The position numbers were made by a program, and so were the translations under genes. From Bacteroidales bacterium (GTDB lineage Bacteria > Bacteroidota > Bacteroidia > Bacteroidales > VadinHA17), in the NCBI GenBank assembly GCA_025358645.1, contig JANYIW010000192.1, positions 1-47,822 on the forward strand: a stretch of DNA of 47,822 bases, given 5' to 3'. The notes below the pieces were generated by a model. The model was not told the origin of the DNA. It ran no database searches and saw nothing but the letters and a program-made list of their open reading frames with translations. This document shows, piece after piece, positions 15,846 to 25,772 of this stretch; positions within the stretch are counted from its first letter, which is position 1, and every line of letters starts with the position of its first letter.

Positions 15846-15853
15846 TATATTTG
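15846..15853 (+). promoter_or_regulatory. Candidate promoter of the gltB leader (TATATTTG)
   Basis: Exact TAnnTTTG match, 182 bases upstream of gltB. Transcription from here would start near 15860 and pass through the 19-codon leader frame and the terminator hairpin. I see no clear -33 element at the usual spacing. Confidence 0.5.
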
Positions 15854-15872
15854 TCGGAATATATTAAAATAA

Positions 15873-15932
15873 ATGAATAATTTTAAATCCATAATATTAC
15901 ACTTCATTAATAGGTTAATTGAAACTGACTGA
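15873..15932 (+). CDS. Putative 19-residue leader peptide of gltB
   Basis: ATG 15873-15875 to TGA 15930-15932, reading MNNFKSIILHFINRLIETD. It starts about 13 bases after the expected transcript start. Its stop codon overlaps the first two bases of the proposed antiterminator arm (15931-15939), which is how classical attenuator leaders are arranged. It has a Glu-Thr-Asp end but no run of a single control amino acid. It could be a chance frame, so the confidence rests on position, not on sequence. Confidence 0.4.
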   Translation: MNNFKSIILHFINRLIETD

Positions 15933-15970
15933 GAATGGTGTTTGATATCGGATTCGGGATGACCGTTCTC
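15931..15970 (+). promoter_or_regulatory. Proposed antiterminator pairing of the gltB leader
   Basis: GAGAATGGT (15931-15939) can pair with ACCGTTCTC (15962-15970): 9 bp with one G-U. ACCGTTCTC is the left arm of the terminator, so the two structures exclude each other. A second option pairs GTGTTTGA (15938-15945) with TCAAACAC (15971-15978), which also blocks the terminator. All pairings are read directly from the sequence; function is inferred. Confidence 0.5.
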
Positions 15971-15994
15971 TCAAACACAGAGAACGGTTTTTTT
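15962..15994 (+). terminator. Intrinsic terminator in the gltB leader
   Basis: ACCGTTCTCT (15962-15971), 7-base loop, AGAGAACGGT (15979-15988), then T to 15994 (seven T in a row). It is a perfect 10-bp stem placed 33 bases before the gltB ATG, downstream of the candidate promoter. It lies in front of the operon and not behind a known gene, so it probably controls gltB read-through. Confidence 0.88.
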
Positions 15995-16027
15995 GTATAA
16001 AACAGAAGTATAATTAAGGCAATCATT

Positions 16028-19000
16028 ATGAAAAAAGAACGCCCAAAGCAGCAGGGATTGTACCGTCAGGAGTTTGAGCATGGAAGTTGCGGAATTGGAT
16101 TTGTTGCACATCTCAAAGGAAAAAAGTCTCACTCGATAATCAGGCAGGGGCTTGATATACTCATTAATATGTCTCACCGTGGCGCGGAAGGGGCCGATAG
16201 TAAAACTGGAGATGGCGCTGGTGTACTGATACAGGTCCCCAGGGATTTTTACCTTATCCAGGGCTATTCACTTCCACCGGAAGGACAGTTTGGAACAGGA
16301 CTTATATTCTTTCCGCAGGATAGTTCTGACGCGGCTGAGTGCCAGAAGATTCTTACAACTATAATTAAAGAAGAAGGTGTCAATCTGATCGGTTTTCGTG
16401 AAGTCCCTCGCAATAATTCAGTCATCGGTGAGATATCCCGTGCTGCAGAGCCCAAAATCCTTCAGATTCTTCTGGGGGCAGATGTTCAGCAGGCAGATCT
16501 GGAGCGCAAATTATATATAATAAGGAAACTGACAGAAATCGCAATCCGCAATTCAAACCTTAAACAAAAGAGTTTTTTCTATATACCAAGTCTTTCCACA
16601 AAAGTGCTTGTATATAAAGGTATGCTTACCTCGATTCAACTTGGCGAATATTTTCTCGACCTTAATGATGAGCGATTACAAAGTGCAATAGCACTGGTTC
16701 ATTCGAGATTCAGTACAAATACATTTCCAAGCTGGGATCTGGCTCAGCCATTCAGGATGCTGGGACATAACGGAGAGATAAATACAATAAAAGGAAACCG
16801 ATTCTGGATGGAAGCAAGAGAATCAATCCTTCAATCAGAGAAGCTGGGCGATCTTACCAGGTTGTATCCGATTATTGAACCTGACAAGAGTGATTCGGCA
16901 TCGCTTGATAACGTGTTAGAATTTCTGATAATGAGTGGCAAATCACTACCTTATGCAATGTCTGTCCTGATTCCAGAATCAATAAATGATAAGAATCCCA
17001 TCTCACCTGAATTGAAGGCATTTTATAAGTATCATTCTACATTTCTGGAACCGTGGGATGGTCCTGCTTCTCTGATCTTCTCTGATGGTCGTTATATTGG
17101 CGGGATGCTTGACAGAAACGGGCTTCGTCCTTCCAGATATGTCATTACAACAAATGATCTGATAGTTATGGGATCGGAAGCGGGTGTTCAGACATTTGCC
17201 CCTGAGGAGATCAGGGAGAAAGGACGGTTAAAACCCGGGAAGATGCTTCTTGTTGATACTGAGTTGGGTAAGATTTTCTACGATAAAGAGCTGAAGGCGG
17301 AGTTGGCCGCAGAATATCCTTATGGACAATGGATCCAACAGAATATGGTCAAACTTGAAAAGATCGAGACAAGCCATAAGGAGTCACCTGATATGGGAGA
17401 TCAATACGATAAATATATTACTTCCTTTAATTACTCACTGGAAGATACCGACAAGATTATCAAAGAGATGGCTGCCACAGGAAAGGAACCACTCGGTTCG
17501 ATGGGCAACGATGTTCCTATTGCAGTGTTGTCAAAAAAACCATACAGGTTATTTAACTATTTCAAACAGTTGTTTGCACAGGTTACAAATCCGCCTATCG
17601 ATCCGATAAGAGAAGAGCTTGTAATGACACTGTCTGGTTATCTTGGATCCTTGCAGCAAAACCTTCTTGAAACAACTCCGGATCATGTAAAAATGGTACG
17701 GTTCAGGAATCCTGTAATATCCAATACATATTTTCAGGTTGTCAAAAACTTAAGGTACAAAGGATTTTCAGCGGCAAACCTTCAATTGCACTTTGATGCA
17801 GGGAAAGGCGCTGAAGGCCTGAAGGATGCTGTTGAACAATTGTGTAAAGATGCCGAAAAAGCAGTCGATGAAGGGAAAAATTATATTATACTCTCCGACC
17901 GTGGTATTAGTGAAAACACCGCACCTATCCCATCGTTACTTGCAGTCTCTGCTGTTCATCACCACCTTATTAAAACCCGCAAAAGGATGCAGATTGATAT
18001 AGTAGTGGAATCTGCTGAACCTCGTGAGGTAATGCATTTTGCACTACTTTTTGGCTATGGGGCAAGTATCATTAATCCATACATGTCTTTTGCAGTAATT
18101 GATAAGCTTATTAAAGGAAAGGCAATACAGCTCGACTATCAGAAGGCAGAGGAGAATTATGTTAATGCAGTAAATAAAGGCATTCTGAAAATTATGTCCA
18201 AGATGGGAATCAGTACCCTCAGAAGTTACAGATCCTCTCAGATCTTTGAAGCTGTTGGTATTCACACTGATGTAATAAATAAGTATTTTGTGGGAACAAC
18301 TTCAAGAATCGGTGGTATAGGAATGAATGAGATTGCCGAGGAAGTACTTATCCCGCATAGAAAAGCTTTTATTTCGGAACAGCAACCGGATATCCTTACC
18401 GAAGGAGTATATTCTTATCGGAAATATGGTGAACATCATGCCTGGAATCCTGAAGCAATCTCTCTCTTACAATGGAGCACCAGTACCGGAAATTATAAAA
18501 AGTTTAAAGAGTATACCAACCGGGTAAATGCCGATACTGCCAGTCCGGGTTTCATTCGGGGATTGTTAAGGATAAAAACTAATCCAATTCCGATAGCAGA
18601 GGTTGAACCAATTGAAAAGATCATGAAAAGGTTTGTCACCGGCGCAATGTCTTATGGTTCAATAAGTCGTGAGGCACACGAAACGCTGGCTATTGCAATG
18701 AACCGTATTGGCGGACGGAGTAACACAGGGGAAGGAGGCGAAGACCCTGTACGTTTTAAACCTCTTGAAAATGGTGACAGTGTAAGAAGCGCTATTAAAC
18801 AGGTGGCCAGCGGCCGCTTTGGAGTGACAACCGAATATCTTGTAAATGCAGATGAGCTTCAGATCAAAATCGCCCAGGGTGCAAAGCCGGGTGAAGGTGG
18901 CCAGTTGCCGGGGCATAAAGTGGATAAGATAATTGCGAGAACAAGGTATGCAATACCGGGAATAACGCTTATTTCTCCTCCGCCTCATCATGATATTTAT

Positions 19001-20554
19001 TCAATTGAGGATCTTTCACAACTTATCTTCGATCTGAAAAATGTTAATCCAAAGGCTAAGGTAAGCGTGAAATTGGTTTCTGAAAGCGGAGTTGGTACAA
19101 TAGCAGCCGGCGTAACTAAAGCAGGTGCTGATCTTATCACAATAAGCGGTTATGAAGGTGGAACCGGCGCCAGTCCTTCATCATCAATTAAACACGCCGG
19201 ATTGCCACTTGAAATTGGTCTCGCTGAAACGCAGCAAACTCTTGTAATGAATAACCTGCGGAGAAAAGTGATTATTCAGGCTGACGGACAGTTGAAAAGC
19301 GGAAGAGACATTATCATTGCTTCCTTGCTGGGCGCTGAGGAATTTGGATTCTCGACATCAGCGCTCATTGTTTTGGGATGCGTGATGATGCGTAAATGTC
19401 ATCTCAATACCTGTCCCGTAGGCGTAGCAACTCAAAACCCGGAATTGAGAAAGCGATTCAGAGGAAAAGCCGATAATGTTGTAACATATTTCAAATTCCT
19501 GGCAGAAGAAGTACGTGAACTCCTTGCTGAACTTGGCTATAAGAAGATGGATGACATAATTGGCCGGTTTGATCTCCTGGAAAGAAATCCGGAAGTCAAC
19601 CATTGGAAGATCAAAAATCTGGATCTTTCAGCACTCCTTACACAACCAACAGAATCATTCGATAATGCTATGCATTGTTGTGATGTTCAGGATCACAAAA
19701 TTGATCACATCCTTGATATAGAATTAATTGCTGAAGCTGAAAAGGCTATTGCAGACAAACAACCGGTTTTAATAGAAAGATCTATACATAACACCGACAG
19801 GACAATAGGAGCCATGCTATCTGGTAAGATTGCAATGCTCTATGGCTCAGAGGGTCTACCGGACGGGACAATAAAATGCAGATTTAAAGGATCAGCAGGT
19901 CAGAGCTTTGGAGCATTTCTTTCACCGGGTATTGAACTATATCTTGAGGGTGATTCGAACGATTACCTCGGGAAAGGTCTTTCCGGTGGAAGGATTATTG
20001 TTGTTCCCCCTGTTGGCTCTACTTTTGAGCCCGATAAAAATATTATAATTGGGAATACCGTTCTTTATGGCGCTACGAGAGGTGAAATATATATTTCCGG
20101 TGTCGCCGGTGAAAGATTCGGAGTACGAAACAGCGGGGCAATAGCTGTAGTTGAAGGTGTAGGAAACCATTGCTGTGAATATATGACAGGAGGACAGGTT
20201 GTTGTTCTCGGAACTACCGGGAGCAATTTCGCAGCCGGGATGAGCGGTGGTGTCGCTTATGTATTTAATGAAAACGGGGATTTTGACTTTTACTGCAATA
20301 TGGGTATGGTCGAATTATCCCTTGTAGAAGATCATAGCGACATTAATGAGCTTACTGAACTCATCTCAAAACATTATCAATTTACTAAAAGTAAAAAAGC
20401 AAGGATGATACTCGATGATCTTTACAAATATATCCCGATGTTCATTAAAGTCATACCTTATGACTTTAAGAAGGTTCTTCAGGAACAAAAGCTTGAAGAA
20501 ATAAGAAAAAAAATTGCTAATGTTGAGATCGATCTTGAAATAAGCGCCAGTTAA
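16028..20554 (+). CDS. gltB: Glutamate synthase (GOGAT), large subunit
   Basis: A 1508-residue enzyme that makes two glutamates from glutamine and 2-oxoglutarate. A 20-residue propeptide precedes C21 in HGSCGIGF, the expected N-terminal nucleophile of the class II amidotransferase domain (to about residue 430). The central domain follows. The FMN and [3Fe-4S] domain carries C1118, C1124 and C1129 in GCVMMRKCHLNTCPVG, and PGEGGQLPGHKV with GGTGASP. The C-terminal GXGXG beta-helix is present (VEGVGNHCCEYMTGGQVVV). All domains are complete, with normal length. It is co-transcribed with gltD across a repeat. It is regulated by the upstream attenuator-like leader (inference). Confidence 0.98.
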   Translation: MKKERPKQQGLYRQEFEHGSCGIGFVAHLKGKKSHSIIRQGLDILINMSHRGAEGADSKTGDGAGVLIQVPRDFYLIQGYSLPPEGQFGTGLIFFPQDSSDAAECQKILTTIIKEEGVNLIGFREVPRNNSVIGEISRAAEPKILQILLGADVQQADLERKLYIIRKLTEIAIRNSNLKQKSFFYIPSLSTKVLVYKGMLTSIQLGEYFLDLNDERLQSAIALVHSRFSTNTFPSWDLAQPFRMLGHNGEINTIKGNRFWMEARESILQSEKLGDLTRLYPIIEPDKSDSASLDNVLEFLIMSGKSLPYAMSVLIPESINDKNPISPELKAFYKYHSTFLEPWDGPASLIFSDGRYIGGMLDRNGLRPSRYVITTNDLIVMGSEAGVQTFAPEEIREKGRLKPGKMLLVDTELGKIFYDKELKAELAAEYPYGQWIQQNMVKLEKIETSHKESPDMGDQYDKYITSFNYSLEDTDKIIKEMAATGKEPLGSMGNDVPIAVLSKKPYRLFNYFKQLFAQVTNPPIDPIREELVMTLSGYLGSLQQNLLETTPDHVKMVRFRNPVISNTYFQVVKNLRYKGFSAANLQLHFDAGKGAEGLKDAVEQLCKDAEKAVDEGKNYIILSDRGISENTAPIPSLLAVSAVHHHLIKTRKRMQIDIVVESAEPREVMHFALLFGYGASIINPYMSFAVIDKLIKGKAIQLDYQKAEENYVNAVNKGILKIMSKMGISTLRSYRSSQIFEAVGIHTDVINKYFVGTTSRIGGIGMNEIAEEVLIPHRKAFISEQQPDILTEGVYSYRKYGEHHAWNPEAISLLQWSTSTGNYKKFKEYTNRVNADTASPGFIRGLLRIKTNPIPIAEVEPIEKIMKRFVTGAMSYGSISREAHETLAIAMNRIGGRSNTGEGGEDPVRFKPLENGDSVRSAIKQVASGRFGVTTEYLVNADELQIKIAQGAKPGEGGQLPGHKVDKIIARTRYAIPGITLISPPPHHDIYSIEDLSQLIFDLKNVNPKAKVSVKLVSESGVGTIAAGVTKAGADLITISGYEGGTGASPSSSIKHAGLPLEIGLAETQQTLVMNNLRRKVIIQADGQLKSGRDIIIASLLGAEEFGFSTSALIVLGCVMMRKCHLNTCPVGVATQNPELRKRFRGKADNVVTYFKFLAEEVRELLAELGYKKMDDIIGRFDLLERNPEVNHWKIKNLDLSALLTQPTESFDNAMHCCDVQDHKIDHILDIELIAEAEKAIADKQPVLIERSIHNTDRTIGAMLSGKIAMLYGSEGLPDGTIKCRFKGSAGQSFGAFLSPGIELYLEGDSNDYLGKGLSGGRIIVVPPVGSTFEPDKNIIIGNTVLYGATRGEIYISGVAGERFGVRNSGAIAVVEGVGNHCCEYMTGGQVVVLGTTGSNFAAGMSGGVAYVFNENGDFDFYCNMGMVELSLVEDHSDINELTELISKHYQFTKSKKARMILDDLYKYIPMFIKVIPYDFKKVLQEQKLEEIRKKIANVEIDLEISAS

Positions 20555-20650: not shown

Positions 20651-20690
20651 CAGCAATGTGATAAGGATTAAATATTTTAAAAAAGATATT

Positions 20691-22112
20691 ATGACTGATA
20701 TAAGCGGATTTCTCAAGATAAAAAGGAAGGAAGCGGGAAACAGACCTTTAAATGAAAGGATCGCCGACCACAGCGAGGTTGAACAGGTACTGAATAGTGA
20801 AGACAGGATGCTTCAGGCTGCAAGATGTATGGATTGTGGCACGCCCTATTGCCATTGGGGTTGTCCGGTCGATAATCTGATTCCTGAATGGAATGATCTG
20901 TTATACAAAGGTGACTGGAAAGGAGCTTATTTGCGCCTTGCAGCAACAAATAATTTTCCGGAATTTACTGGAAGAATTTGTCCTGCACCTTGTGAACACG
21001 CCTGCGTTTTGAATATCATTCAGGAACCTGTAACAATCAGGGAAAATGAAGTAGCAATTGTTGAAAAGGCCTTTACTGAAGGATATATTAAACCGGAACC
21101 TCCAAAAATCCGCACTGGCAAATGTGTTGCAGTAATTGGCAGTGGTCCTGCCGGAATGGCTGCTGCCGATCTGTTAAATAAAGCGGGTCACCTCGTGACT
21201 CTTTTTGAGAAAGATGAAAAAGCAGGCGGATTGCTTCGATTTGGTATTCCTGATTTTAAACTTAGCAAAGCTACAGTTGACCGACGTCTCGACCTGATGA
21301 TTAAGGAAGGAGTTATCATCAGAACAGGAATAAATATCGGTAAAGACATTACCGGTAAAGAGATCCTTGAGCATTTCGATGCAATCTGCATTGCAATTGG
21401 GGCAACTCATCCACGCGATCTATCAGCAGGTGGAAGGGAGCTAAATGGCATTCATTTTGCAATGGATTTTCTTTCACTTCAAAATAGGGTAAATTCAGGT
21501 CATATACCTGCCTCAGCCAATAATATTAATGCTGAAGGAAAAAAAGTCCTGGTAATAGGAGGCGGAGATACTGGTTCTGACTGTGTCGGAACATCAACCC
21601 GGCAGAAAGCCGCAAGTGTAACGCAGATTGAGATTATGCCAAAACCACCACTGAGGAGGTCGGATAATAATCCATGGCCGTACTTTGGAAAAATACTGAA
21701 GATATCCACCTCCCATGAAGAAGGGTGCGAAAGATACTGGAACCTGTCGACTGTCAAATTTCTGGGAACAGATAATCATGTAACCGGAGTTGAAGTAGAA
21801 GATGTGGTTTGGAATCCAATAAATGACAAATATACCATGCTGGTCGTCCGCGATACACGCAGAATTATTGATGCTGATCTTGTATTGCTTGCAATGGGGT
21901 TTGTTCACCCTGCTCTCGACGGATTACTTTCAGAGCTTGAATTAGAACTCGATCAGAGAAAAAACATAAAGGTTGATCATACACAATTGACAAACAGGCA
22001 AAAAGTTTTCGCTGCCGGCGATTCAGTTAGCGGGGCAACCCTGGTTGTAAATGCAATCGCTTCTGGTAGAAAAGTTGCTAAAGAAATTGACAAGTTCCTG
22101 CGTAAAGCATGA
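20691..22112 (+). CDS. gltD: Glutamate synthase, small (NADPH) subunit
   Basis: A 473-residue flavoprotein from ATG 20691; a GTG start at 20658 would lie close to the repeat and adds only an unusual 11 residues. The N-terminal cysteines C46, C49, C54 and C58 are in RCMDCGTPYCHWGCP, and a second set is in CPAPCEHACV; these build the low-potential Fe-S clusters. FAD and NADPH Rossmann motifs are AVIGSGPAGMAAAD and VLVIGGGDTGSDC. The C-terminal FAAGDSVSGATLVVNAI is the FAD site. It passes electrons from NADPH to the GltB FMN. Family and length are normal. Confidence 0.98.
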   Translation: MTDISGFLKIKRKEAGNRPLNERIADHSEVEQVLNSEDRMLQAARCMDCGTPYCHWGCPVDNLIPEWNDLLYKGDWKGAYLRLAATNNFPEFTGRICPAPCEHACVLNIIQEPVTIRENEVAIVEKAFTEGYIKPEPPKIRTGKCVAVIGSGPAGMAAADLLNKAGHLVTLFEKDEKAGGLLRFGIPDFKLSKATVDRRLDLMIKEGVIIRTGINIGKDITGKEILEHFDAICIAIGATHPRDLSAGGRELNGIHFAMDFLSLQNRVNSGHIPASANNINAEGKKVLVIGGGDTGSDCVGTSTRQKAASVTQIEIMPKPPLRRSDNNPWPYFGKILKISTSHEEGCERYWNLSTVKFLGTDNHVTGVEVEDVVWNPINDKYTMLVVRDTRRIIDADLVLLAMGFVHPALDGLLSELELELDQRKNIKVDHTQLTNRQKVFAAGDSVSGATLVVNAIASGRKVAKEIDKFLRKA

Positions 22113-22217: not shown

Positions 22218-25200
22218 CTAAATGGGGAGATCAGGCTGATTTTTAGCGAAAGGCAGACGAAATTTAAAAGTACTCCCTTTTCCTTCTTCGCTTTCAACCC
22301 ATATCTGGCCTCCTTGTTTTTCAACAAATTCTTTACACAGGAATAATCCAAGACCGGTTCCCTTTTCATTATCTGTACCACGGGTTGAGAGGTTAGCGTC
22401 TATTCTGAAAAGTTTTGCCATTATCTCCTTCGTCATTCCCAGACCGTTATCTGATACTGCTATTTCCACATAATTTTTATAGGTTACTGCAGTTACCTGA
22501 ACCTGTCCGTTTTTATGAGTAAACTTAACACCATTCGTAATCAGATTCCGTAATATGGTTCTGATCATGTTTTTATCTGCTATTATTGTTAATGAATTAT
22601 TGACAAAGTTCTTGAGCTCAATGTTTTTGCCCATCGCCATTTCATCTACCATGGTAAATTCATCTTTTATTAATTCACTTAAGTTAATCGGGACTGGGGT
22701 AAATGATAGTTTCCCACGTTGTGAATTTGCCCATTCCAGAAGATTTTCCAGTAACCGAAGTGTTTGAACGGCTGCCGTATTTATCATTACAGAATACTCA
22801 TAAAATGTTGCAGGATCATTTAATTTTACAGATTCTTTCATCATCTCGCTGAAACCAATAATGGTATTGAAAGGGTTCTTCAGATCATGTGCAATAATTG
22901 AAAAGAATTTATCTTTTGAGGCATTTAGTTCATTTAATTCAGCAGTTTTAGTTGCCACTGTTTTTTCAAGAAGTATCTTTTGGTTATTCAGTTGCCGGAC
23001 ACGCGATCTGAAAATTGCGATAACTATGAAGATGATGACAGACAAACCAATAATCCGAAACCATAATGTTTTCCACCAGGGTGGCAAAATTATTATTTTC
23101 AATGAAGCTCCCGTCATATTCCAGGCGCCATCGTTGTTTGTTGCCCTTACCTTAAAAGTGTATTCACCCGGGTCAAGATTAGTATATGTTACATATCTCC
23201 GGAAGGCATCGGTAAAATTCCAATCCTTTTCAAAGCCTTCCATAATATAGGAGTATTGATTCTTTTTTGGATGAATATAATTTATCGCTGCAAATGAGAA
23301 TGAAAAGACTGATTGGTTCCAGTTCAGTGTAATTTCTTTCGCTTCACTTATGTCTGTTTGAAACTGTGCACCATGAACAGCATAAACCACTGGCTTATTG
23401 AATATTTGAAAATCAGTAATATAAACAGGAGGAATGAAATCATTATCCTTGAGACTGTCGGGAAAGAAAGAATTCAGGCCACAGTATCCACCGAAGTACA
23501 ATTCTCCGGCCCTTGTTTTAAGAAAAGATTGCTGATAAAACTGATCACCCTGTAAACCATCTTCTCTCGAATAATTCCTAATACTCTGAATTTCAGTATT
23601 CAACCTGCTGATACCATAATTGGTTGAAATCCAGATATCCCCTTTATTATCCTGAGTGATTGCATGTATTCTATTGTTAAGCAAGATATTTGTCATATCA
23701 TACGTTTTAAGTATGGTCCCATCCGGATTACATAAAAAAAGTCCTTTTGTGTTGCTTCCTACCCAAATATATCCTGACTTATCTTTATAAAATGACCCGA
23801 TGTCATTATCAGGAAAATTAAACACTTTAAAAGTATTAGTCAGACTGTCATAGAGATCCAGACCGTTCTGTGTACAAATCCACATTTTTTTTACCTCATC
23901 TTCAAAGAAGAACCAACTATTTGATCCACTAATCGAACCCGGGCTATCCGGATTGGATCTGAATCGTCTCGTAACACCCTTTTTAATATCAAACAAATCA
24001 ATACCCATATTATATATGCTAATCCATAAGGTATTGTTATGATCTATAAAAAGATTCCAGATAGTTTTATTTGAAATGCTTGAAGAATCTTTCTCATCAG
24101 GCATATACCGGATAAACCGTCCTGTTTTTCTATCATACCTGTTTAGCCCGGCATCCCATGTTCCGATCCACATATCATGATCTTTATCTTCAGCAATGCC
24201 GCGAATAACGTTCCCACTGATACTATATGGGTTCGCCGGGTCATGTTTAAATATATCAAACTTGCCACTTTTGGGATCAAAAATATTAAGTCCGCCTCCA
24301 TCTGTACCAATCCATATCAATCCTTCATGATCTTCATAAAGACTACCCGTAAAATTGTATGACAATGATTTAGGGTTATTATTATTGTGTGTAAATAAGT
24401 TAAACCTTTCTTTCTCAGGATAATAGTAATTTATCCCTCCGCCTGAGGTGCCTATCCAGAGAATTCCTTCCTTATCTCTGTGAAAACACCAGATTCCATT
24501 ATTATTAAGTCCGGCATCATTTGTATTATCATACATGATATAATCAAAGGTTGCAGATATTTTGTCGAAGCGGTTTATCCCACCCTGATCCACTGCAAGC
24601 AGCAAATAACGGTCATCTTCGGGAATAATATCCAGTACGAAATTAAGGTTTGTACCTTTACCGTCACCCTTTAATCCGAAATGTTCAAACTTATTGGTTG
24701 CAGGATCGTAAGAAAAGAATCCGATTCCATCAGTTGCAATCCATATTTTATCTTGATTATCAATATATAAGCTCTTATAGCTAAAGTTACCAATTTCAAC
24801 AGACGGGTCATCAAATTTTGTAAATAATCCTGTTTCAGGATCAAAACGAGTGATCCCCGGACTTATAGAACCTATCCAAATGTGTCCTTTTGAATCAACC
24901 GCAGCCATGCGGGAAGGACGAACAGATAAAGCATGTCTCATAGATTCAAACGGATATCGTGTAAAACTCTGGTTATCAGGGTTCCATCTATTAAGACAAC
25001 TTCCGTCAGTCACAACCCAGAGAATCCCATTTTTATCTTCAACAATACCAGTAATACAATTGCTGTTTAAACTGGTGCTTTTGTCAATTTTGTTTTTAAA
25101 AACTTTGAAATTATCCCCGGAACGATTATACAAATTCAACCCATCATAAGTACCAATCCACAGGTTTTGTTCCCGATCTTCATAAATGCATGTTAAGATA

Positions 25201-25469
25201 TCACTGCTTACTGTGCCGGGAATATTATCAATATGCCTGTACTTCTTTAACTGATAGCTGTCATATTTATCAAGTCCCACATCAGTACCTATCCAAAGAT
25301 AATCCTTCCTGTCTTTGTGTATACACCTTATACGGTTACTTGAGAGACCATCGTTTACTGTCAGGTAATTGAATCTTGAATATCGTTTCTGAGCATATAT
25401 TCCGGAAATTCCGGTAAGACATAGCAATGGAATCAATAAATATTTTCTGAATGAATGATTCCCCCCCAT
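22218..25469 (-). CDS. Periplasmic propeller sensor histidine kinase without receiver or DNA-binding domain
   Basis: About 1083 residues from ATG 25469; a start at 25493 is also open. A signal peptide (LLIPLLCLTGISGIYAQ) precedes many blades of the two-component propeller repeat (for example NGLSSNRIRCIHKD, LWIGTDVG, LWIGTYDGLNLY). A Y_Y_Y domain (YSYIMEGFEKDWNF, PGEYTFKVRATNND) comes next, then one membrane segment (WFRIIGLSVIIFIVIAIF). The cytoplasmic kinase part has H861 in IIAHDLKNPFNTIIGFSEMM, an N-box region near TNGVKF and the G boxes NGLGM and GTGLGLFLCKE. Typical hybrid sensors of glycan loci carry in addition a receiver and an AraC-type domain; this protein ends after the ATPase domain. 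It is divergent from the two hydrolase genes and probably senses their glycan. Confidence 0.93.
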   Translation of the reverse strand: MGGNHSFRKYLLIPLLCLTGISGIYAQKRYSRFNYLTVNDGLSSNRIRCIHKDRKDYLWIGTDVGLDKYDSYQLKKYRHIDNIPGTVSSDILTCIYEDREQNLWIGTYDGLNLYNRSGDNFKVFKNKIDKSTSLNSNCITGIVEDKNGILWVVTDGSCLNRWNPDNQSFTRYPFESMRHALSVRPSRMAAVDSKGHIWIGSISPGITRFDPETGLFTKFDDPSVEIGNFSYKSLYIDNQDKIWIATDGIGFFSYDPATNKFEHFGLKGDGKGTNLNFVLDIIPEDDRYLLLAVDQGGINRFDKISATFDYIMYDNTNDAGLNNNGIWCFHRDKEGILWIGTSGGGINYYYPEKERFNLFTHNNNNPKSLSYNFTGSLYEDHEGLIWIGTDGGGLNIFDPKSGKFDIFKHDPANPYSISGNVIRGIAEDKDHDMWIGTWDAGLNRYDRKTGRFIRYMPDEKDSSSISNKTIWNLFIDHNNTLWISIYNMGIDLFDIKKGVTRRFRSNPDSPGSISGSNSWFFFEDEVKKMWICTQNGLDLYDSLTNTFKVFNFPDNDIGSFYKDKSGYIWVGSNTKGLFLCNPDGTILKTYDMTNILLNNRIHAITQDNKGDIWISTNYGISRLNTEIQSIRNYSREDGLQGDQFYQQSFLKTRAGELYFGGYCGLNSFFPDSLKDNDFIPPVYITDFQIFNKPVVYAVHGAQFQTDISEAKEITLNWNQSVFSFSFAAINYIHPKKNQYSYIMEGFEKDWNFTDAFRRYVTYTNLDPGEYTFKVRATNNDGAWNMTGASLKIIILPPWWKTLWFRIIGLSVIIFIVIAIFRSRVRQLNNQKILLEKTVATKTAELNELNASKDKFFSIIAHDLKNPFNTIIGFSEMMKESVKLNDPATFYEYSVMINTAAVQTLRLLENLLEWANSQRGKLSFTPVPINLSELIKDEFTMVDEMAMGKNIELKNFVNNSLTIIADKNMIRTILRNLITNGVKFTHKNGQVQVTAVTYKNYVEIAVSDNGLGMTKEIMAKLFRIDANLSTRGTDNEKGTGLGLFLCKEFVEKQGGQIWVESEEGKGSTFKFRLPFAKNQPDLPI

Positions 25470-25772
25470 TTTAAGAATCTTTAAAACAGCCACTGTTTCC
25501 TTTAGTATTTTGAATAGAATAGTACTAAAACCTCAGAATTTTAAAGATATAGCTTTTTTAGCTAACATTTTCATTACAAAGGAGAGAATCAGACGCCAGT
25601 GGTAGTATAATAAACAATTAATGATGAACTCCGAATAAAGAAATTTAAAAAGTATTGGCTCTTCAATTCAACGATGTTAGGCAATTCAAAGATATATAAA
25701 TATATAGTGTCGATTTTTAAGAACTTTACTAAAACTCCTTACTTTTACATTTCAATAATGAGAATTTTAACA
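25470..25772. other. Divergent intergenic region
   Basis: AT-rich region between the sensor kinase and the TIM-barrel hydrolase. It must hold promoters for both directions, but I see no exact TAnnTTTG box, operator or hairpin that I would call. Confidence 0.4.

Follow-up and report, generated by a model that had tools for sequence, protein, structure and literature searches.

The gltBD locus and its leader

The window, as the whole stretch of 47,822 nucleotides analysed here is called, belongs to a genome of 4.06 Mb in 414 contigs whose closest named relatives are Bacteroidales metagenome assemblies; the named relatives that carry the switch described below are all metagenome-assembled as well. 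It holds the genes for the large and small subunits of glutamate synthase, gltB and gltD, one after the other on the forward strand (Table 1). The zwf and pgl genes lie on the strand opposite to gltB and point away from it. A large sensor histidine kinase of 1091 aa, with a FimS-like kinase part and a PorZ-like stretch in its N-terminal half, is encoded on the minus strand at 22218-25493, its end facing gltD.

Table 1. Features of the gltBD leader and operon (positions in the window)
Feature	Position	Strand	Basis or remark
Promoter -7-type box TATATTTG	15846..15853	+	read in sequence; TAnnTTTG match
Leader frame, 19 codons, MNNFKSIILHFINRLIETD	15873..15932	+	ATG 15873; TGA 15930-15932 overlapping region 2
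Codon -6, AGG (Arg), proposed control codon	15912..15914	+	codon comparison across leaders
Region 2, antiterminator left arm GAGAATGGT	15931..15939	+	read in sequence, alignments; overlaps leader stop
Spacer between regions 2 and 3, with GGATTCGGGAT (15950-15960)	15940..15961	+	genus alignment A2
Region 3 ACCGTTCTC	15962..15970	+	common to antiterminator and terminator
Region 4, terminator right arm GAGAACGGT	15980..15988	+	read in sequence, alignment
Intrinsic terminator, 11 pairs, loop 7, seven T (15988-15994)	15961..15994	+	terminator scan, folding, alignment
gltB, glutamate synthase large subunit	16028..20554	+	NF008730, 1821.7 bits
gltD, glutamate synthase small subunit	20658..22112	+	TIGR01317, 604.6 bits

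A first-pass annotation had described the region before gltB as an attenuator-like leader, and re-reading the sequence found its box, frame, arms and T run exactly where they had been placed. The box TATATTTG, claimed as an exact one, is indeed present from 15846, and is identified as promoter-like by its match to TAnnTTTG, which we take to be the Bacteroidota promoter -7-type consensus. The 19-codon frame ends as reported in a stop codon overlapping the left arm of the putative antiterminator. Region 2 can form nine of nine pairs with region 3 (15931-15939 with 15962-15970), one of them a U.G wobble, and this helix is incompatible with the terminator, as the proposed mutual exclusion demands. 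The terminator, with its seven T ending at 15994, was the single hairpin (11 pairs, 15961-15989) in a scan of 801 bases, against a shuffle mean of 0.3 (sd 0.6), and the leader from 15855 to 16000 folds with a z of -3.12. A further pairing that had been put forward as a second way of blocking the terminator (15938-15945 with 15971-15978) is present in the window, but no more than 10 of 48 relatives retain a 7-base version of it, and it was rejected as a general feature because it is limited to a clade.

In predicted foldings of the window's leader RNA, regions 2 and 3 pair when the transcript runs up to 15978 and so lacks region 4, and placing a ribosome at codon -6 of a transcript still lacking region 4 gives the same pairing; masking region 2, as a ribosome at the UGA would do, gives the terminator. 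At equilibrium the complete leader favours the terminator (-32.1 against -19.0 kcal/mol with the 2:3 helix enforced), and the full RNA beyond a ribosome placed at codon -6 does so too. Read-through would thus require, in keeping with attenuation models, that the 2:3 helix be the first to form and that it persist. From this layout we infer that the leader is translated and that the ribosome decides between the two helices, in the following direction. RNA polymerase would make a leader containing the 19-codon frame and three arms; a ribosome that arrived at the UGA would cover region 2, leaving region 3 to pair with region 4 and transcription to stop before gltB; and a ribosome held upstream, or perhaps one that never loads, would allow regions 2 and 3 to pair before region 4 is made, with read-through as the outcome.

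Conservation of the leader

For comparison, gltB starts were gathered from public contigs and genomes, and 168 distinct upstream regions, each 120 bases or longer, were searched for an arm pattern covering regions 2 and 3 (GRGRATGG, then CC[AG]TT[CT] within 60 bases), the terminator lying outside this test. The pattern occurs in 61 of the 63 distinct regions whose GltB is at least 67% identical to the window's over its first 301 residues, and in 8 of 105 below that identity. At the level of sequence comparison the pairing of regions 2 and 3 is therefore conserved beyond chance, in line with what the first-pass annotation expected of relatives. The two regions lacking the pattern are L011 and L227. 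L011 comes from a fairly close relative, with gltB 83% identical over the N-terminal 301 residues.

Alignment A1 comprises 44 leaders aligned through the terminator. Since the pattern used to select them already contains region 2 and some of regions 3 and 4, their invariance is partly built in, and the 61 of 63 above is the fairer conservation figure. The 2:3 helix is paired in 98.5% of 396 cells of A1 and the terminator in 94.5% of 440, compared with 37-58% when the partners are slid; the U.G wobble of the antiterminator is kept in 40 of the 44 sequences, and four of the 44 have A for G in region 3 and U for C in region 4, keeping both helices. Paired base changes, which had been suggested as a check on both arms, were found for the terminator, where both partners differ in 20 cells, a count that none of 500 shuffles reached, but for the antiterminator they were no more frequent than in shuffles, 465 of 500 of which reach the observed level. 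Covariation is uninformative here because region 2 hardly varies, and with arms this nearly invariant it would not by itself prove the antiterminator. An AUG at 15935-15937, inside region 2, is present in all gltB leaders counted, as the selection pattern demanded; ilvD and leuA leaders are variable at this position. A second frame starting from the AUG in region 2 (GAGAAUGG) was rejected as a conserved gene, since by eye it ends after a few codons or shifts frame in relatives.

The leader frame, which was also expected to be kept in relatives, is open far more often than its alternatives. In 33 of 36 diverged gltB leaders (less than 75% alike) no stop interrupts 17 codons of the frame that closes at the overlapping UGA, against 7 and 10 leaders for the other frames; this frame measures 19-20 codons in 21 of the 36, and a T precedes GAG in 35. 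Its pN/pS is 1.56 in a set of 12 close leaders, where changes are few, and 0.85 in a second set of 11 more distant leaders; the other frames give 0.60-0.86. Purifying selection on the leader peptide was thus not seen in either set; values near or above 1 indicate that frame, length and stop are kept and the peptide residues are not, and protein-level conservation of the peptide was rejected on this ground. Within 68 nt upstream of the frame, TAnnTTTG occurs in 61 of 68 leaders, mostly at one distance, against 7.9% in shuffles. This promoter-like box makes it very likely that transcription starts before the switch; the contrary arrangement named in the first-pass annotation, a start downstream of 15994, finds no counterpart in the position of the box, which lies upstream of the leader.

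Other explanations of the conserved RNA fare less well. RNAalifold, applied to 35 leaders of the genus (alignment A2), returned the terminator alone and no other conserved or long-range fold, and no Rfam covariance model, including Bacteroid-trp, glnA and T-box, matched the window at its gathering score; at E <= 10 STnc50 (17 bits, on the opposite strand) and Phe_leader (14.1 bits) appeared, the gathering score being 55 for each. These results, together with the conserved frame, stop position and promoter box, make it highly improbable that the leader is a riboswitch for a metabolite or an ordinary terminator with a fortuitous repeat upstream, although such readings could accommodate one feature that the attenuator model leaves unexplained, the conserved spacer stretch GGATTCGGGAT, whose majority form among relatives in A2 is GGATTAGGGAT and which has no evident pairing partner. 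A phylum-wide search with the exact two-arm pattern gave 12 matches in 10 of 296 genomes, against about nine for a reversed control pattern; all except the window's own were taken as chance, the matched stretch alone having been inspected.

A switch shared with ilvD and leuA

A covariance model, R1, was built from the gltB leaders between the UGA and the terminator and includes no sense codon of the leader. Within the order it gave 86 matches in 61 of 295 genomes at E <= 0.01, of which 16, all at E >= 0.0029, were left out of the reading. Besides the window's own, 69 sites were read, with 30 before ilvD, 18 before leuA, 12 before gltB and nine before other genes, gene names having been assigned from tell-tale sequence motifs, by eye and by pattern, and not by family search. 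Two of the nine are by eye IlvD-like (L321) and acetolactate synthase-like (L317), and the remainder look like chance terminators. By these matches, the RNA switch of gltB is the same as that of Bacteroidales ilvD and leuA. In the window's genus R1 had 51 matches in 47 of 60 genomes, 49 of them directly upstream of a gltB start as judged by position, and across the class it had 8 matches in 295 genomes at E <= 0.001. The strongest class-wide match outside the order (in genome G878) stands before two genes, one ilvE-like and one ilvD-like, and its leader was translated by eye as MQTLQIIIIRILLVVLLVPSE; five loci outside the order were retrieved and one, L403, was interpreted.

A branched-chain attenuator family with a UGAGAAUGG-like region 2 (before ilvD, leuA and ilvE; L233-L261, L291-L330 and L403) is found across Bacteroidales. 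Region 2 of the ilvD, leuA and ilvE-ilvD leaders reads UGAGAAUGG or a variant of it, for instance UGAGAGUGG or UGAGAAAGG, and these Bacteroidia leaders share with the gltB leader the same or nearly the same region 2, the UGA overlap, the leader length and the terminator.

The window's genus has ilvD attenuators of its own (L331-L372), which have the layout in common with the gltB leader and differ from it in their arms. The arms, by eye UGAUCCGGGA / UUUCCGGAUC, are unrelated to those of gltB, yet the UGA again overlaps region 2, the 2:3 helix by eye again contains one G.U pair, and the leaders are rich in branched-chain residues; that of the window's genome (L361, on contig C165) is VRISLIHIIVLLLIIAQDA. 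About 5 kb separates leuA from ilvD in this genome, where both genes are on one strand of one contig. No attenuator was recognised by eye within 200 bases upstream of leuA at 30 loci of the genus. The leuA upstream regions L381 and L383 contain hairpin-like inserts.

The proposed stall position and codon -6

For the reading of the leader codons, leaders without a recognised frame were left out (one of 47 gltB leaders of the genus, two of 30 ilvD, three of 18 leuA and six of 41 own-genus ilvD leaders), the N-masked gltB leader L058 had already been excluded, and where the stop does not fall exactly at the overlap the nearest codon was counted as codon -6. Ile, Leu and Val make up 0.59 of the residues in ilvD leaders (28 peptides) and 0.49 in leuA leaders (15), against 0.32 in gltB leaders of the genus (46) and 0.27 in other gltB leaders (21), and their longest run averages 7.6, 4.2 and 2.3 residues in ilvD, leuA and gltB leaders, respectively; Val accounts for 24% of ilvD and 2% of leuA leaders. 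In nine genomes that have both a gltB and a branched-chain leader, among them the window's genome, whose ilvD leader has other arms, the gltB leader is the lower in Ile/Leu/Val in nine of nine (Wilcoxon p 0.004).

The branched-chain codons of the ilvD and leuA leaders end at a definite distance from the stop. From codon -8 to codon -4, the Ile/Leu/Val share is 0.93, 0.93, 1.00, 0.79 and 0.29 in ilvD leaders and 0.60, 0.67, 0.73, 0.80 and 0.20 in leuA leaders, and in the own-genus ilvD leaders with their other arms it is 0.97-1.00 from -8 to -5 and 0.37 at -4. Ribosomes cover about 12-14 bases beyond the A-site codon, so region 2 should stay accessible while codon -6 or -5 occupies the A site, but not once the ribosome has moved further on; codon -6 of the window lies near the end of the stretch in which a stalled ribosome would leave region 2 free. 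That two unrelated arm sequences come with the same codon edge speaks strongly, on comparative grounds, for a role of ribosome position in these attenuators. At codon -6 the residue is Ile, Leu or Val in 28 of 28 ilvD, 11 of 15 leuA and 34 of 35 own-genus ilvD leaders, but in 0 of 46 gltB leaders of the genus and 0 of 21 others; Ile/Leu/Val through the stall window, the mark of a branched-chain leader, is thus absent from gltB (0 of 67 at codon -6).

These figures bear on the simplest reading of the shared switch, in which gltB would have kept a plain branched-chain attenuator and shortage of Leu or Ile would switch gltBD on, the RNA equivalent of the control that ties gltBD to leucine/Lrp in E. 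coli. Beyond the switch itself, such a reading can point to the Ile (15%) and Leu (13.5%) content of the genus leaders, to Ile/Leu/Val at codons -9, -8 and -5 in 67%, 74% and 67% of them, and to three gltB leaders (L155, L157 and L111) that keep Ile/Val-Leu codons as region 1. The excess of Ile/Leu/Val over shuffles is nevertheless just z 1.27, and the deficit against ilvD and leuA leaders of the same genomes and the empty codon -6 make this reading unlikely.

What occupies codon -6 of gltB leaders instead is Arg in 42, His in 2 and Gly in 2 leaders of the genus, and Arg in 8, Lys in 5, His in 3, Asn in 2 and Gln, Gly and Ser in one each of the others. Residues with side-chain nitrogen (Arg, Lys, His, Asn, Gln) therefore stand there in 44 of 46 and 19 of 21 leaders (63 of 67, mostly as AGG), against 25-30% of shuffled leaders, and in 25 of 26 and 17 of 19 after thinning to less than 70% alike. 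The corresponding p values are 8e-24 and 1e-8 (thinned, 3e-14 and 8e-8), which overstate the case since the residue class was named after the gltB codons had been seen, the position having been fixed by the ilvD set. The gltB leader thus contains one constrained codon of a residue class and no run of control codons. Over the whole leader the class is near its shuffled frequency (z 1.6 and 0.7 in the two sets), which leaves a single codon to carry the proposed signal; Glu or Gln codons, considered as a signal, were rejected, being below expectation (z -1.2 and -2.35).

In the genus codon -6 is AGG in 42 of 48 leaders (one masked) and never another Arg codon, although within gltBD AGG makes up 27% of Arg codons. 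All 68 readable leaders have a purine as second base of codon -6, which makes a nucleotide preference a live alternative. In the leaders L017 and L056 the letters AGG are retained but shifted by one base relative to the frame, which speaks against a pure codon reading. Given the lack of synonymous Arg codons and these two leaders, a nucleotide constraint fits as well as an Arg codon, and AGG might be a nucleotide element, a pause or an anti-Shine-Dalgarno contact that holds the ribosome, with the peptide irrelevant, as pN/pS near or above 1 would also allow. Distant families, however, change the letters (AAA, AAG, CAT, CAC, CAG, AAT, AAC and similar) and keep the residue class better, and AGG stands at codon -6 in only 4 of 68 switch sites over all genes, so that a nucleotide element appears rather improbable.

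The leader may also have lost its specificity altogether. If region 1 and the codon run had gone, any delay or failure in translating the leader would lead to read-through and no single amino acid would regulate the operon, a reading that seems a reasonable possibility, though short of probable. It accords with a leader composition close to that of shuffled sequence, with peptide residues that evolve freely and with a weak region 1. The genus leaders moreover often have Ile, Leu or Val at codons -9, -8 and -5, Lys at -7 and Lys or Arg at -7/-6, so that a mixed sensor is possible and several starvations would stall the ribosome. Codon -6 is, on the other hand, far from free, with AGG in 42 of 47 readable genus leaders and a side-chain-nitrogen residue in 19 of 21 distant ones.

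Interpretation and relation to known attenuators

We consider the gltBD leader to be, with a probability of about 0.8, a ribosome-mediated transcription attenuator in which a branched-chain device was taken over and retuned. The mechanism is well supported by comparison of leader sequences, which brings out the arms, the frame, the stop position, the promoter box, the common switch and the codon window, and the first-pass reading as classical peptide-controlled attenuation gains from the same features. The operon would then probably carry a branched-chain-type attenuator retuned to another signal, most likely the charging of nitrogen-rich amino acids or general amino acid supply. The more specific version is tentative: codon -6, branched-chain in ilvD leaders, would have been exchanged for residues with side-chain nitrogen, Arg (AGG) in the genus and Arg, Lys, His, Asn or Gln in distant families, and shortage of these aminoacyl-tRNAs may turn on glutamate synthase. 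If so, this would be nitrogen control through neither a regulatory protein nor a metabolite-binding RNA. Control of nitrogen assimilation genes is usually ascribed to proteins (PII, NtrC, Lrp) or to glutamine riboswitches; here a glutamate synthase operon is apparently controlled by ribosome position, in a phylum in which little attenuation has been described. The ilvD, leuA and gltB leaders, with one switch and one differing codon position, would amount to a natural experiment on how an attenuator changes its specificity.

Classical ribosome-mediated attenuators are the trp, his, leu and ilv leaders of enterobacteria, and the Bacteroid-trp RNA is an attenuator with Trp codons. In the parts of the literature covered, the S. 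aureus ilvD leader is described as a ribosome-mediated attenuator with a short leader frame (PMC5794164) and Bacteroid-trp RNA is placed before trp genes in Bacteroidetes (RF01692; Weinberg 2010, PMC2864571). The gltB leader resembles the enterobacterial and S. aureus leaders in its short frame, its alternative antiterminator and terminator and the proposed link between completed leader translation and termination; unlike them it precedes glutamate synthase, has no run of a single amino acid and, in the window's genus, has a weak region 1. With Bacteroid-trp, as far as described, it shares the phylum and the position before an amino acid operon, but Bacteroid-trp precedes trp genes and has no match in the window. 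Riboswitches or riboswitch candidates at glutamate synthase genes, the gltD motif among them, resemble the proposed attenuator in being known or suggested RNA control of such genes; among Rfam families the window has no match at gathering score. For Flavobacterium psychrophilum, hints that leader peptides attenuate amino acid operons have been reported in a paper whose main text mentions neither gltB nor glutamate (PMC9723704). A search of titles, abstract openings and passages, with subscription journals mostly outside it, found no published description of attenuation at glutamate synthase, in agreement with the first-pass statement that no case was known in Bacteroidota, and none of branched-chain attenuators in Bacteroidales. 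The device is accordingly of a known kind, while its target would be new and its tuning apparently so.

Region 1 and proposed descent

The protector hairpin between regions 1 and 2 has a mean z of -1.27 in ilvD and -1.79 in leuA leaders, and of -0.71 in gltB leaders of the window's genus, where it was rejected as a conserved feature for its weakness. Region 2 of the gltB leaders, GAGAAUGG, is what pairing with AUU/GUU-CUC requires, and these branched-chain codons often serve as region 1 in ilvD and leuA leaders; in gltB leaders that region 2 is kept and the matching codons are mostly gone. From this we infer a branched-chain attenuator as the ancestor of the gltB one, the alternative being that both arrived at the same arms by convergence. 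In the three gltB leaders that keep Ile/Val-Leu codons, region 1 is strong, with duplex values of -15.5 (L155), -14.1 (L157) and -14.1 (L111).
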